Source: Candidatus Cloacimonadota bacterium
GTDB lineage: Bacteria > Cloacimonadota > Cloacimonadia > Cloacimonadales > Cloacimonadaceae
Length of the DNA stretch: 14,644 nt
Assembly (NCBI GenBank): GCA_012519465.1
Contig: JAAYQD010000230.1
Coordinates: forward strand, 1-14,644
Direction of reading: 5' to 3'
The first letter of the stretch is position 1. Each line of letters begins with the position of its first letter. Of this stretch, positions 8,006-11,086 are shown piece after piece. The notes under the pieces were generated by a model. That model was not told where the DNA came from. It did not search any database and saw nothing but the letters and a program-made list of their open reading frames with translations. The translations under genes and the position numbers were made by a program.

Positions 8006-9286
8006 TTATTCTACTCTACAGGAACTGGGTATATTCACCAGCCGATCTGCTATTTCTTTGGATATGCTCAAATCTCCGCAAATGGAATTCTTGAACATCT
8101 CCAGTTCACTCATTAGTCTCCATGCGGGACGCGTCATTACTTTATTGGCGTTTGTTTCTTTTAGGAATAGCTCCTGCTGGATATGATCCTTGAGCAGAAT
8201 CACATTGAGCCAGAAGTTGGAAATCGATTGTGCGGGCTCAGTCCTGTACTGAATATCGGGAATGCCGGCAAAGAACTCCTGATAACGCATAGCCGTCTCG
8301 CGTTTATTGGCAAGGATGGTCTCCAGTATTTCCATCTGCGCACAGCCCAAAGCGGCGTTGACGTTGGGCAGACGGTAGTTATAGCCCACCATATCATGTT
8401 CAAACTTCCAAGGATGGGGCTTTTTGGCGGTGGTAGTGATGTGCTTTGCCAAGGGACCCAAGTGCTCATCATCAGTCAGCACCATTCCCCCGCCGCCGGT
8501 GGTGATGGTCTTATTGCCATTAAAGCTGAGGATCCCCAATTTGCCAAAGGTGCCCGTATGCCGGTCTTTATAATAGGAGCCCAGGGATTCAGCGGAATCC
8601 TCCACCACGGGGATGTGATAGCGGGCGCATATCTCTACGATTTTGTCTATATGGCAGGGATGGCCGAAGGTGTGCATGGGAACGCAGGCTGAAATTGGGC
8701 GGCGCAGTGTTTTGTGTACTGCAATCAATGAGGAGGGCTGGATGCTGCGCCTTGTTGAGCGGACTTCGTCCTGTTGAGTGGGCTGCGCCCGGTTGAGCGG
8801 ACTTCGTCCTGTTGAGAAGGCAGCGTCTGGCTGAACATCTGCAAGTTCAAAACTATTTAAACTTACCACTTCAACGTTTTCTGTGAGCCAGCATTCCAGG
8901 GATTCCGGGGACATGCCCATGGTATCGGGATCCACATCCACAAAGACGGGCTTTGCGCCGCAGTAGGAGATGGCATTGCAGGTAGCGATGAAGGTGAGGG
9001 GTTGGGTGATTACCAAATCCCCCGGCTGCACTCCTGCCAATAGCAGGGCAATATGTAGGGCGGCGGTACCATTCACCGTAGCGATGGCGTATTTGGCGCC
9101 GGTGTATTCCTTTACCATTTCTTCAAAACGATCCACGTATTTGCCCACGGAGGATACGAAAGTGGTATCAATACAGTCGGCAAGGTACTTCTTTTCGTTG
9201 CCGGCAAAATAGGGCTCGTGCAGGGGGATGAAGTCTTTATCTGGGTAGAGGGAGCGGATGAAGGAGATTGTGTCTTTGTATTTCAT
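8006..9286 (-). CDS. legC: LegC-type PLP-dependent sugar aminotransferase with a repeat-derived insertion
   Basis: This 426-residue member of the DegT/DnrJ/EryC1/StrS family makes a 4-amino sugar from a nucleotide 4-keto-6-deoxy sugar using PLP and glutamate. Seen: HEPYFAGNEKKYLADCID (23-40), FVSSVGKYVDRFEEM (43-57), ATVNGTAALHIAL (69-81), VVEDSAESLGS (227-237) with D230, and SFNGNKTITTGGGG (254-267) with K259 as PLP Schiff-base lysine. The C-terminal VNIPSSCRVE is typical of the LegC group. LegB next door supports the assignment. The segment between WLTENVE and ISACVPMH (about 140-190) is unusually long. From memory of the family about 20 residues are expected between these motifs, but 64 are present, and the extra part is encoded by GTTGAG hairpin repeats. 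Conserved motifs on both sides stay in frame. The start has GGAG 7 nt upstream. Confidence 0.9.
   Translation of the reverse strand: MKYKDTISFIRSLYPDKDFIPLHEPYFAGNEKKYLADCIDTTFVSSVGKYVDRFEEMVKEYTGAKYAIATVNGTAALHIALLLAGVQPGDLVITQPLTFIATCNAISYCGAKPVFVDVDPDTMGMSPESLECWLTENVEVVSLNSFELADVQPDAAFSTGRSPLNRAQPTQQDEVRSTRRSIQPSSLIAVHKTLRRPISACVPMHTFGHPCHIDKIVEICARYHIPVVEDSAESLGSYYKDRHTGTFGKLGILSFNGNKTITTGGGGMVLTDDEHLGPLAKHITTTAKKPHPWKFEHDMVGYNYRLPNVNAALGCAQMEILETILANKRETAMRYQEFFAGIPDIQYRTEPAQSISNFWLNVILLKDHIQQELFLKETNANKVMTRPAWRLMSELEMFKNSICGDLSISKEIADRLVNIPSSCRVE
8754..8835 (-). repeat. In-frame GTTGAG hairpin array inside the legC-like gene
   Basis: Plus-strand GTTGAG occurs at 8754, 8773, 8792 and 8811, an exact 19-nt period, followed by a decayed GCTGAA at 8830. 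Each spacer is a 13-nt stem-loop: GGAC-TTC-GTCC (8761-8771), GGGC-TGC-GCCC (8780-8790), then GGAC-TTC-GTCC again. On the coding strand the array encodes about residues 154-181 (around STGRSPLNRAQPTQQDEVRS), which have no counterpart in the conserved aminotransferase core. The 25-nt stretch 8773-8797 is identical to 9443-9467. Confidence 0.88.
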
Positions 9287-9305: not shown

Positions 9306-9339
9306 CAGTTGAGCGCACTCGCAAGCTCGTGCTGTTGAG
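9306..9339 (+). repeat. 34-bp perfect inverted repeat, left arm
   Basis: This stretch, from CAGTTGAGCGCACTCGCAAG at its start to GTGCTGTTGAG at its end, is the exact reverse complement of 9999-10032. Pairing fails at 9305/10033 and at 9340/9998, so the perfect match is 34 bp. The arms lie on opposite sides of the four-helix-bundle gene. Confidence 0.92.
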
Positions 9340-9467
9340 ATGCACTCGTGCAAGTTGAGCGCACTCACAAGTTCGTGCTGTTGAGTGGCACTGTGTGCCG
9401 GTTGAGCGGTGCTGCGCACCTGTTGAGATGCACTGCGTGCAAGTTGAGTGGGCTGCGCCCGGTTGAG
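9306..9467 (+). repeat. GTTGAG hairpin-repeat array A
   Basis: Eight GTTGAG units start at 9308, 9334, 9354, 9380, 9401, 9422, 9443 and 9462 (spacing 19-26 nt). Each is followed by a small stem-loop, for example TGCAC-TC-GTGCA, GGCAC-TGT-GTGCC, GGTGC-TGC-GCACC, TGCAC-TGC-GTGCA and GGGC-TGC-GCCC. Stem sequence differs from unit to unit but pairing is kept. The array occupies the leader between the four-helix-bundle gene and the legC-like start, ending 20 nt before that ATG. Confidence 0.88.
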
Positions 9468-9488
9468 AAAGTCTGTGCGCTTTATGTA

Positions 9489-9878
9489 TCATTTACGTGT
9501 GGTCTTGTTTTGTTCATTTTGAAGGGCAGCTTTCCTCAGGGCATTAAGCCGATAAGCTACCTTGTCAATTTTATCTCTTATGGTGTTATATCCATTCTCA
9601 GATATATAGGTTATATCAAAACATAAGGTCATCTGGCAGAGTAACTCCATCAAACTGGCATAGGCTGTTTGATAGAAATGAGCTTGATCCTTGCAGCTAA
9701 CCCTGGAAGAACCTTCTGCAATATTTGAGCTTACAGAAACAGCAGATCTTTGAATTTGACTAATCAGTCCATACCTCTCGCTTTCAGGTATCTTTTTGGT
9801 TAGGAGATAAACATCTTTAACCAACTGGCGTGAATCCTGCCACACTTCCAGCTTTTCGTATCCATACTGTCTTTTCAA
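9489..9878 (-). CDS. Four-helix-bundle protein (23S rRNA intervening-sequence / S23 type)
   Basis: This 129-residue protein is a clear member of the four-helix-bundle family first found as ORFs in 23S rRNA intervening sequences and later as free-standing genes, some as accessory proteins of diversity-generating retroelements. Seen: YEKLEVWQDSRQLV (7-20), the hallmark SQIQRSAVSVSSNIAEGSSR (40-59), AHFYQTAYASLMELL (66-80), and a last helix ISENGYNTIRDKIDKVAYRLNAL (92-114), then a polar tail rich in N, T and K. The family is thought to form oligomers and may bind nucleic acid. The start is TTG at 9878, with GAGGTGG 4 nt upstream; the nearby ATG at the ribosome site meets a stop after three codons. 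No reverse transcriptase or rRNA is in the window, so neither known context applies. It lies inside inverted hairpin arrays. Confidence 0.9.
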   Translation of the reverse strand: MKRQYGYEKLEVWQDSRQLVKDVYLLTKKIPESERYGLISQIQRSAVSVSSNIAEGSSRVSCKDQAHFYQTAYASLMELLCQMTLCFDITYISENGYNTIRDKIDKVAYRLNALRKAALQNEQNKTTRK

Positions 9879-9882
9879 TCTA

Positions 9883-9889
9883 CCACCTC
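9883..9889 (-). promoter_or_regulatory. Ribosome binding site deciding a TTG start (four-helix-bundle gene)
   Basis: On the minus strand GAGGTGG ends 4 nt before TTG at 9878-9876. The only ATG nearby opens ATG-AGG-TGG-TAG and stops at once, so TTG is the credible start. Confidence 0.55.
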
Positions 9890-9926
9890 ATAAATGTAAT
9901 TCAGAACACACGCGAAGAGCCAAACC

Positions 9927-10064
9927 CTCAACTGGGCGAAGCCCTCTCAACCGCGCAGCAAGCTTCGCTTGCAAACACTTAACAGGCGCAACGCGCCGCT
10001 CAACAGCACGAGCTTGCGAGTGCGCTCAACTGGGCGCAGCCCTCTCAACTGATGCTCCGCATCA
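9927..10064 (-). repeat. GTTGAG hairpin-repeat array B (inverted relative to array A)
   Basis: On the plus strand the unit reads CTCAAC, at 9927, 9946, 9999, 10025 and 10044, with a decayed CTTAAC at 9978. Intervening stem-loops are GGGC-GAA-GCCC (9934-9944), GCAAGC-TTC-GCTTGC (9958-9972), GGCGC-AAC-GCGCC (9985-9997), GGGC-GCA-GCCC (10032-10042) and TGATGC-TCC-GCATCA (10050-10064). The last hairpin contains the stop codon of the legB-like gene. Confidence 0.87.
9999..10032 (-). repeat. 34-bp perfect inverted repeat, right arm
   Basis: Exact reverse complement of 9306-9339 (see left arm). The distance between the inner ends of the two arms is 659 bp, and the four-helix-bundle gene takes up 390 of these. 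Confidence 0.92.
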
Positions 10065-11039
10065 AACATTATACAAACCCGGTTTATACTTCGCCAGATT
10101 CCCCGGTTCCACAAACCACTCCACCGTCTTTTCCAGACCCTCCCTGATACTATATTTAGGTTCAAAGCCCGTTAGTTTACGGATTTTGGTATTGTCACAC
10201 CACAATCTGAATACTTCCGATTTCTCTGGTCTCAGGCGCTGTTCATCAGTCACAAACTCCACATCGCTATCCATTATTTCTTTGATCAGGTTCAGGGTAT
10301 CTGCCACGGAGATTTCGTAGTTGGAACCGATATTAACGGTCTCACCAATGGCTTGTTCACATTTGGCAAGCTGGATAAAGCCCCGGCAGGTATCTTCCAC
10401 ATAGTTAAAATCACGGGTAGGGCTCAGGTCTCCCAGTTTGATCTGTGTGGCACCAGCAGCAATCTGGGTAATGATGGTGGGGATCACGGCACGGGCAGAT
10501 TGGCGCGGACCATAGGTATTGAAGGGCCTCACAATGGTGAGGGGCAAAGACAGGGCATTAAAAAAGCTCATGGCGATGGCATCTGCGCCGATCTTGCTGG
10601 CGCTATATGGGGATTGGGGCTGTAAGGGGTGTTTTTCATCGATGGGAACGTATTGTGCCGTGCCATATACCTCGCTGGTGGAGGTGCACAGAATGCGTTT
10701 GACCCCGGCATCACGCGCCGCCTGGCAGATATTGAGGGTGCCACGCACGTTTGTATCCACATAACTATCGGGGGCTATATAGGAGTAAGGAATGGCGATG
10801 AGGGCTGCCAGGTGAAACACGATATCGATATCAGCACAGATTTCCCGGCAGTAATTGGGGTCCCTCACGTCTCCCGAAACAATTTCCAGATTTGGGTGCT
10901 GGGGGATGTCTTCCAGCCAACCCCAATAATTGAAGGAATTGTATTGGGCAAGGGCGCGTACATGGTAGCCTTCCGCAAGCAGTGCCTCTGTGAGGTGGGA
11001 GCCGATGAAACCGTCGGCACCGGTTACTAAAACTTTCAT
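10062..11039 (-). CDS. legB: LegB-like NAD-dependent nucleotide-sugar 4,6-dehydratase
   Basis: This 325-residue extended short-chain dehydrogenase makes a 4-keto-6-deoxy nucleotide sugar, the substrate for the LegC-type aminotransferase. Seen: NAD-binding VTGADGFIGSHL (5-16), SGDVRD (55-60), HLAAL (76-80), TSTSEVYG (119-126) with Ser122/Glu123 in the dehydratase active-site position, catalytic Y145 and K149 in YSASK, RPFNTYGPRQSARAVIP (171-187) and RDFNYVEDT (209-217). The YNSFNYWGWL segment (33-42) and the NVRGTLN context match my recollection of LegB rather than RmlB or GMD. I start at ATG 11039 because AAGGA lies upstream and the NAD motif then begins normally. A TTG at 11066 would add nine residues without a ribosome site. 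Its stop codon lies in the last hairpin of array B. A related UDP-sugar epimerase or dehydratase role cannot be excluded. Confidence 0.86.
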   Translation of the reverse strand: MKVLVTGADGFIGSHLTEALLAEGYHVRALAQYNSFNYWGWLEDIPQHPNLEIVSGDVRDPNYCREICADIDIVFHLAALIAIPYSYIAPDSYVDTNVRGTLNICQAARDAGVKRILCTSTSEVYGTAQYVPIDEKHPLQPQSPYSASKIGADAIAMSFFNALSLPLTIVRPFNTYGPRQSARAVIPTIITQIAAGATQIKLGDLSPTRDFNYVEDTCRGFIQLAKCEQAIGETVNIGSNYEISVADTLNLIKEIMDSDVEFVTDEQRLRPEKSEVFRLWCDNTKIRKLTGFEPKYSIREGLEKTVEWFVEPGNLAKYKPGLYNV

Positions 11040-11086
11040 TTGTTTTCCTTCATTTTCTATCCGCAAATGTGTGCGGCAGTGGGTGT

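Follow-up and report, generated by a model that had tools for sequence, protein, structure and literature searches.

An S23 gene between inverted repeat arrays in a protein operon: a candidate mobile cassette

What is a gene for a 23S rRNA intervening-sequence (S23) protein doing between legB and legC, enclosed by arrays of short hairpin units that point in opposite directions? We have addressed this for a stretch of 14,644 nucleotides from a Candidatus Cloacimonadota bacterium, termed here the window, whose features are collected in Table 1. The genome to which it belongs (G000) is a draft of 1.99 Mb in 406 contigs that is 89% complete. We conclude that the segment from 9306 to 10062 is probably a small mobile operon cassette, comprising an S23 gene with inverted-array ends placed between two genes of an operon-like string.

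Table 1. Positions of the S23 gene, its two arms and the neighbouring genes within the window.
Feature	Coordinates	Strand	Remarks
S23 / 23S rRNA-intervening-sequence protein gene, putative cassette cargo	9489..9878	-	129 aa, TTG start
Upstream arm (from S23 gene): GTTGAG-hairpin array, GTTGAG on S23 strand	9927..10062	-	starts at legB stop
Downstream arm: GTTGAG-hairpin array, opposite direction (CTCAAC on S23 strand)	9306..9467	+	ends ~20 bp before legC start
34-nt perfect arm, upstream copy	9999..10032	-	unit missing from G004 upstream arm
34-nt perfect arm, downstream copy	9306..9339	+	unit in G004 with one changed base
legB (NAD-dependent 4,6-dehydratase), upstream host-operon gene	10062..11066	-	TIGR04180 9.1e-157
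legC (LegC-family aminotransferase), downstream host-operon gene	8006..9286	-	TIGR04181 3.1e-157
Further GTTGAG-hairpin array, in frame inside legC	8744..8835	+	

The S23 gene product matches PF05635 (23S_rRNA_IVP) with an E-value of 4.2e-35 and TIGR02436 with 2.7e-31 in profile searches, and the solved structure 2gsc (XCC0516) with 3.9e-22. A preliminary description of this DNA had placed a single S23-type gene between opposed GTTGAG-hairpin arrays, and both the gene and the arrays are confirmed. The two segments it had taken for exact reverse complements are returned by a repeat search as a perfect inverted repeat of 34 nt, 100% complementary, with 659 nt between the arms. As was also proposed, the segment splits the legB/legC pair, with the TIGR04180 and TIGR04181 genes on either side, and S23, legB and legC all lie on one strand. 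The neighbours are protein genes, and an Rfam scan finds neither rRNA nor any other family in the window or in the corresponding locus of G004, a genome of the same genus; nor was rRNA found in 14 more S23 loci, making 16 scanned in this way. PF00078 has no match in the window's genome (89% complete), consistent with the earlier statement that there is no reverse transcriptase. S23 is the sole gene of the segment, and the ORF list and profile searches reveal no recombinase domain in it.

Some further properties of the GTTGAG units may be recorded here. Among 44 distinct GTTGAG-hairpin units from the window and from loci L149-L179, the first and last bases of the spacer around the hairpin covary although the stems vary, the pairs being A/A in 25 units, C/T in seven and T/G in six. 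The core sites of attC elements of integrons have the sequence GTTRRRY. Inspection by eye led us to reject the GTTGAG units as attC or integron sites, because the units of one array all share one direction. The array inside legC, which is also present in G004, falls where LegC of L182 and L042 is shorter by 29 and 26 residues, respectively, and it appears to be a repeat array turned into protein sequence.

The window locus is one case of a widespread arrangement. The 223 distinct S23 genes that we assembled came from 80 contigs drawn from a number of phyla, from Cloacimonadota relatives and from 16 whole genomes; four with flanks shorter than 120 bp were left out, giving 219 for analysis. Arms were measured as an exact inverted match of at least 12 between the 350-nt flanks, and gene neighbours were taken from a simple longest-ORF rule with no gene finder. 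Such a match is present at 107 of the 219 S23 genes, whereas among 547 further genes from these loci only 21 have one; when the threshold is raised to at least 20 the counts become 18/219 and 0/547. Direct repeats of at least 12 occur between the flanks of 29/219 S23 genes. After clustering at 70% identity an inverted repeat is found in 83 of 162 S23 clusters and in 13 of 126 spacing-matched controls, these being genes flanked on each side by a spacer no shorter than 50 bp. Divided by phylum, with manual assignment from record titles, the inverted repeat is present in 38/101 genes of Bacteroidota, 54/86 of Cloacimonadota, 8/16 of Verrucomicrobiota, 4/5 of Marinimicrobia, 1/5 of Gastranaerophilales, 0/3 of Chlorobiota and 2/3 from other records. 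The other 112 of the 219 genes have no exact inverted repeat of at least 12, and this counts against reading the arrangement as a cassette, as do the low figures for Chlorobiota and Gastranaerophilales.

A single genome can contain up to 14 S23 matches. S23 genes also lie in 25 plasmid records, and in six of the 10 cyanobacterial ones that were read there are inverted arms of at least 11, including heptamers AGTAGGG and GGTGACA. Among the other four loci one (L401) has arrays in the same direction and three have no arrays of that size. Cyanobacterial STRR heptamers are known as short tandem arrays between genes. A search for S23 on phages gave no match. The S23 inserts are found in unrelated operons, including folE|cysS, cas6|cas4 and legB|legC (the bar separating the genes on either side). 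On the cyanobacterial plasmids L401, L402 and L405 the S23 genes are flanked by cas6 and cas4 (two plasmids) or by cas10 and cmr3, and in named records S23 is also found between nrdB and nrdA, on the opposite strand. For 208 S23 genes both neighbours could be read; both are on the strand of S23 in 178 cases and both on the opposite strand in six, and S23 agrees with the upstream gene only in 14 and with the downstream gene only in 10. By this comparison the putative cassette is, in most cases, oriented like the genes beside it.

The arms of S23 genes are tandem arrays, mostly of 7-9-bp units that are often GTTNAN-like, running in opposite directions upstream and downstream of the gene. Units of the window arms carry hairpins, whereas at many other S23 loci the arms are simple tandem repeats of 7-9 bp that lack them. 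The aminopeptidase|DUF1015 site illustrates how the two arms are related. Across five genomes there are four main 8-mer motifs, with arrays of GTCGAGAT in G035, GTCGAGAG in G014, GTGGAAAA in G026 and GCGAGATA in G029, while G019 has GTCGAGAG arrays plus GCGAGATA in the upstream arm; each motif is present in both arms except this extra one of G019. An arm motif homogenised throughout a genome was considered and rejected, as the S23 loci of G014 have different motifs.

We analysed the match between arms by permutation. Loci sharing both neighbour families were placed in 29 neighbour-pair groups (82 loci), and the arms were shuffled within groups. None of 5000 permutations reached the observed match, and the result was again 0/5000 when the aminopeptidase and legB groups were removed. 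The mean arm alignment score is 33.9 for natural pairs and 24.5 for swapped pairs, with the natural pair scoring above the mean of its own swaps at 56 of 82 loci. A permutation on 13 hand-picked site groups had given 1/5000, and was replaced by the test on all 29 groups. In a folding version with 10 groups the natural pair outdoes all of its swaps at just 16 of 41 loci, and this counts against a cassette. Swaps had little effect in closely related site groups, with 17.0 against 17.0 pairs for dpp and 41.3 against 46.2 pairs for 24-25. Comparison of loci thus indicates that each locus has a matching pair of arms, with a motif that changes from locus to locus and from species to species.

Could the arms close a stem around the gene in a transcript, as the preliminary description suggested? 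RNA folding of 150-nt flanks was predicted for 209 of the 219 S23 loci and for 200 of 212 controls. The median number of predicted arm-arm pairs is 38 for the S23 loci (n = 209) and 10 for control genes (n = 200), and it is 15 when S23 loci are given the downstream arm of another locus (n = 209). In a second arm swap the natural pairing was better at 160/209 loci and worse at 41/209. For the window 82 arm-arm pairs are predicted, including 29/34 of the perfect arms. With a shuffled downstream arm a mean of 53 pairs is still predicted, and a maximum of 97, an effect of the high G+C content and self-complementarity of the arms. A stem is predicted for the window, but mismatches between arms display no bias toward G-U pairs in the sense RNA (265 vs 284, p = 0.44, 129 loci). 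This argues against selection acting on a stem in the sense RNA, and arm matching is therefore probably kept at the level of DNA.

If the segment were a mobile unit there should be orthologous sites that lack it, and the preliminary description had predicted legB directly next to legC. We find this in seven of 18 loci read. The S23 segment is present in three (G000, G014 and G028), a different ORF lies within inverted arrays in three, one (G003) has arrays with no intact ORF, and four are uninformative. The spacer of the empty sites is no longer than 97 bp; one of these (G021) has a stop inside the legB match. At aminopeptidase|DUF1015, where 30 loci were read of 42 matches, 5/30 are occupied (spacer 539-1256) and 25/30 are empty (11-145 bp). 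At folE|cysS, 30 loci read of 60 genomes comprise one intact copy, one remnant with part of S23 and 28 empty sites (0-151 bp). At these last two sites a 6-mer occurring three times is found in 0/53 empty spacers, compared with 6/7 that are occupied or hold a remnant. Thus gene and both arms appear, by comparison of orthologous sites, to be present or absent together, which suggests that S23 genes and their two arrays come and go as one mobile package. Some S23 sites are kept across genera.

Copies within genomes were also compared. In three of five near-copy pairs the shared block ends in the arms. Two S23 copies of G030, 9 kb apart on opposite strands, share a 670-bp block from arm to arm; a 577-bp arm-to-arm block is common to copies on two contigs of G071; and copies 1.2 kb apart in G061 share an arm-to-arm block of 622 bp. 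Outside these blocks the sequence differs, so that by this comparison some within-genome copies share sequence arm to arm and lose it beyond. In G003 the copies share essentially the S23 ORF, together with scattered matches in the arrays, which counts against a cassette, and the G040 copies are adjacent to each other. The second S23 gene of the window's own genome (contig C363) also counts against a cassette, since the TAACACC arrays on its two sides point the same way over the extent covered by the contig, and so does the same-direction plasmid copy L401.

Terminal inverted repeats, occupied and empty sites, and copies that end at the repeats (3/5 near-copy pairs) are features of a transposon or MITE. 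No target-site duplication is obvious by eye at the three duplicated units, whose array ends are ragged. Only 28 of 148 copies have their nearest S23 relative within their own genome, and S23 proteins resemble each other by site; movement would therefore be rare. Movement itself has never been observed, and mobility is read from the comparison of genomes. Of the two possibilities raised earlier for an undescribed cassette, mobile or RNA-structured, the mobile one gains support, from the empty sites (7/18, 25/30 and 28/30) and from the three unit duplications ending in arms.

The syntenic locus of G004 (L179) allows the turnover of the arms to be followed. Its S23 protein is 94.6% identical to that of the window, with 27 synonymous and seven non-synonymous codon differences between the coding sequences. 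This gives dN = 0.023 and dS = 0.447, a ratio of ~0.05, and points, for this one pair, to purifying selection on the S23 protein. Upstream of the G004 copy lies a gene that is not an orthologue of legB (26% identity). The arms of the two loci differ by whole units. A 26-nt unit behind the perfect repeat is present in both arms of the window; in G004 it is found once, in the downstream arm only, with one base changed. From this we infer that the arms turn over by gain and loss of units. Since G004 has the unit in the downstream arm only, the 34-bp match is probably a recent arm-to-arm copy of one unit, or else reflects loss in G004, and copying of units between arms probably takes part in arm turnover. 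The match is too long for chance, yet it is one unit common to both arms. The identity is therefore a snapshot of arm turnover and no proof of a conserved stem.

The arrays are not specific to S23. GTTGAG arrays of at least three units are found on 17 contigs of the window's genome and 14 contigs of G004, with S23 beside them on one contig in each case, and G027 has 57 raw matches to the GTTGAG-array pattern and no S23 match. No S23 was found in 19 array stretches fetched from G014. The association of this repeat family with four-helix-bundle genes that had been envisaged therefore holds in one direction: inverted arms that match are present at roughly half of the S23 genes, but GTTGAG arrays mostly do not lie beside S23. 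Several S23-less arrangements were noted. Two ~1-kb non-coding inserts of other repeats in G014 (L385 1984-3362 and L389 2020-3061) are bounded by inverted GTTGAG/GTTTAG 9-mer arrays. Pairs of inverted GTTGAG-hairpin arrays ~130-390 bp apart, with ordered hairpin modules unlike those of the window, occur in G000 and G004 (L152 6906-7334, L158 177-431, L170 5234-5724 and L174 6478-6712).

The different ORF at legB|legC is found in three other Cloacimonadota genomes (L410, L411 and L413), where it is GxxExxY-like and lies inside inverted arrays of CACGAAT type. The one tested, from L410, belongs to PF13366 (PD-(D/E)XK); that of L413 may be broken. Judged by their position and surroundings, these ORFs appear to be a second cargo family with the same architecture. 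On plasmids, GxxExxY genes are found with fabD and fabG on either side, and also with ade on one side and a mannose-1-phosphate guanylyltransferase gene on the other. Three of 12 GxxExxY genes reach 12 exact inverted bases in their flanks, by a crude measure that misses arms overlapping the ORF.

Other explanations must be weighed against a mobile cassette. The S23 gene and its stem could be a stable, non-mobile part of the operon, where the stem would set the relative expression or processing of the neighbouring genes as a resident regulatory RNA structure. The shared direction of S23 and both neighbours in most loci, the strong predicted stems, the retention of some sites across genera and the purifying selection on S23 are all consistent with this. 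However, most of the orthologous sites read are empty, copies of the unit appear at new places, the inserts lie in operons that have nothing in common, and the arm mismatches lack the G-U bias, so that we consider this explanation unlikely.

It is still less probable that S23 was acquired singly, and landed or was tolerated in spacers that already contained dispersed tandem repeats. The S23-less arrays common in the window's genome and in G014 would fit this, as would the array-filled legB|legC spacer of G003, and inverted heptamer pairs are known in Xanthomonas from a paper whose text lacks the terms S23 and four helix (PMC4692102). Against it, the empty sites have no arrays, with short spacers and no thrice-repeated 6-mer in 53/60 loci; arm motifs differ among the S23 loci of one genome while matching within a locus; and the 34-mer of the window, allowing up to three mismatches, is found at three places in its genome, all within the window.

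Finally, the GTTGAG hairpins might be REP-like repeats spread by a Y1 (HUH) transposase, with S23 incidental, and the units do resemble tagged REPs in having a short unpaired tag and a hairpin, in forming tandem and inverted pairs and in being dispersed (PMC3733652), but we regard this as very improbable given that cargo and arm type differ, that PF01797 has no match in 7/12 genomes tested including that of the window (draft, 89% complete), that the contig bearing the one PF01797 match of G004 has no GTTGAG array of three units, and that many S23 arms elsewhere contain no hairpins.

Returning to a mobile cassette, there is a good likelihood, by analogy, that it resembles the S23 intervening sequences of 23S rRNA while residing in protein operons. 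As in the intervening sequence of Coxiella, an S23 ORF lies in the sense direction inside an insert ended by a stem, the stem being predicted in the case of the window. The Coxiella element has an end stem of 28 bp and tandem heptamers just upstream of its S23 ORF, is called a selfish element of sporadic distribution, and is excised by RNase III in vitro with no religation (PMC4990558). A solved Xanthomonas relative of S23 forms five four-helix bundles (PMC4990558). There are also differences. The host of the intervening sequence is 23S rRNA whereas that of the window segment is a spacer between protein genes; arms of the window type consist of tandem repeats or hairpin units and vary from locus to locus, unlike those of the rRNA elements; and S23 here appears to be under purifying selection (one pair), whereas the Coxiella authors saw reductive evolution (PMC4990558). 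The rRNA setting was looked for and is absent, and we do not claim membership of the 23S rRNA intervening-sequence family.

S23 is also related to Avd (bAvd, PF22296), the four-helix-bundle protein of diversity-generating retroelements (PMC10053308). The window protein gives a weak match to PF22296 of 6.4e-5, which is below cut-off. Unlike the diversity-generating retroelements, the S23 carriers G000, G012 and G040 have no reverse transcriptase (PF00078). Of 15 genomes tested 12 have at least one PF00078 match. Dependence on reverse transcriptase was rejected as a requirement, since S23 genes are present in G012 and G040 (both 99% complete) although PF00078 has no match in either.

A Flavobacterium columnare genome paper is said to name a four helix bundle protein. 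No description of S23 genes inside inverted arrays was found among the matches listed for openly licensed PMC texts, as titles and abstract starts. The closest likenesses are in short tandem arrays between genes, namely the inverted heptamers of Xanthomonas and Nostoc, of which 70 and 75 inverted pairs were found in two Xanthomonas genomes (PMC4692102), and the TAACTGA arrays (PMC4679880). The terms S23 and four helix are absent from the texts of both papers, and excerpts of these describe neither a cassette with cargo nor an empty site.

How might such a cassette function? The arms could be its recognised ends, folding back on each other as DNA or RNA. Their match may be kept by copying of DNA between the arms, either by fold-back or by template switching, and the S23 protein may bind the folded end structure and so help the cassette to persist or spread. 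RNase III might cut the arm stem in the transcript, a step borrowed from the 23S rRNA intervening sequences that carry S23 (PMC4990558). We propose that an insert between ORFs would be tolerated as a result of such cutting. By analogy, the spacer between ORFs and the break-tolerant rRNA helix may both be places where an insert of this kind does little harm.

More tentatively, and with appreciably less confidence than we attach to the cassette itself, free-standing S23 genes might form a cross-phylum class of mobile elements without recombinase. These would be ended by inverted short tandem arrays, would jump between operon genes and would restore each end by using the other as template, and S23 would be the factor that binds the ends. 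The S23-less arrays of this genome and G014, and perhaps the cyanobacterial heptamers, together with the PD-(D/E)XK cassettes of the legB|legC site and the intervening sequences of rRNA, would then be relatives or relics.

S23 genes are found in several phyla, where annotation describes their products as ribosomal or linked to rRNA and assigns them no role. Many of them would gain a defined setting outside rRNA, carried by a cassette that ends in inverted arrays. A figure legend includes an IVP protein among CRISPR-linked genes (PMC10910872), and the location of S23 next to cas genes, with cas6 and cas4 or cas10 and cmr3 on either side, may explain its presence there. One origin would be offered for unexplained pairs of intergenic tandem repeats, and the old question of how the intervening sequences of 23S rRNA arose and spread would become testable.
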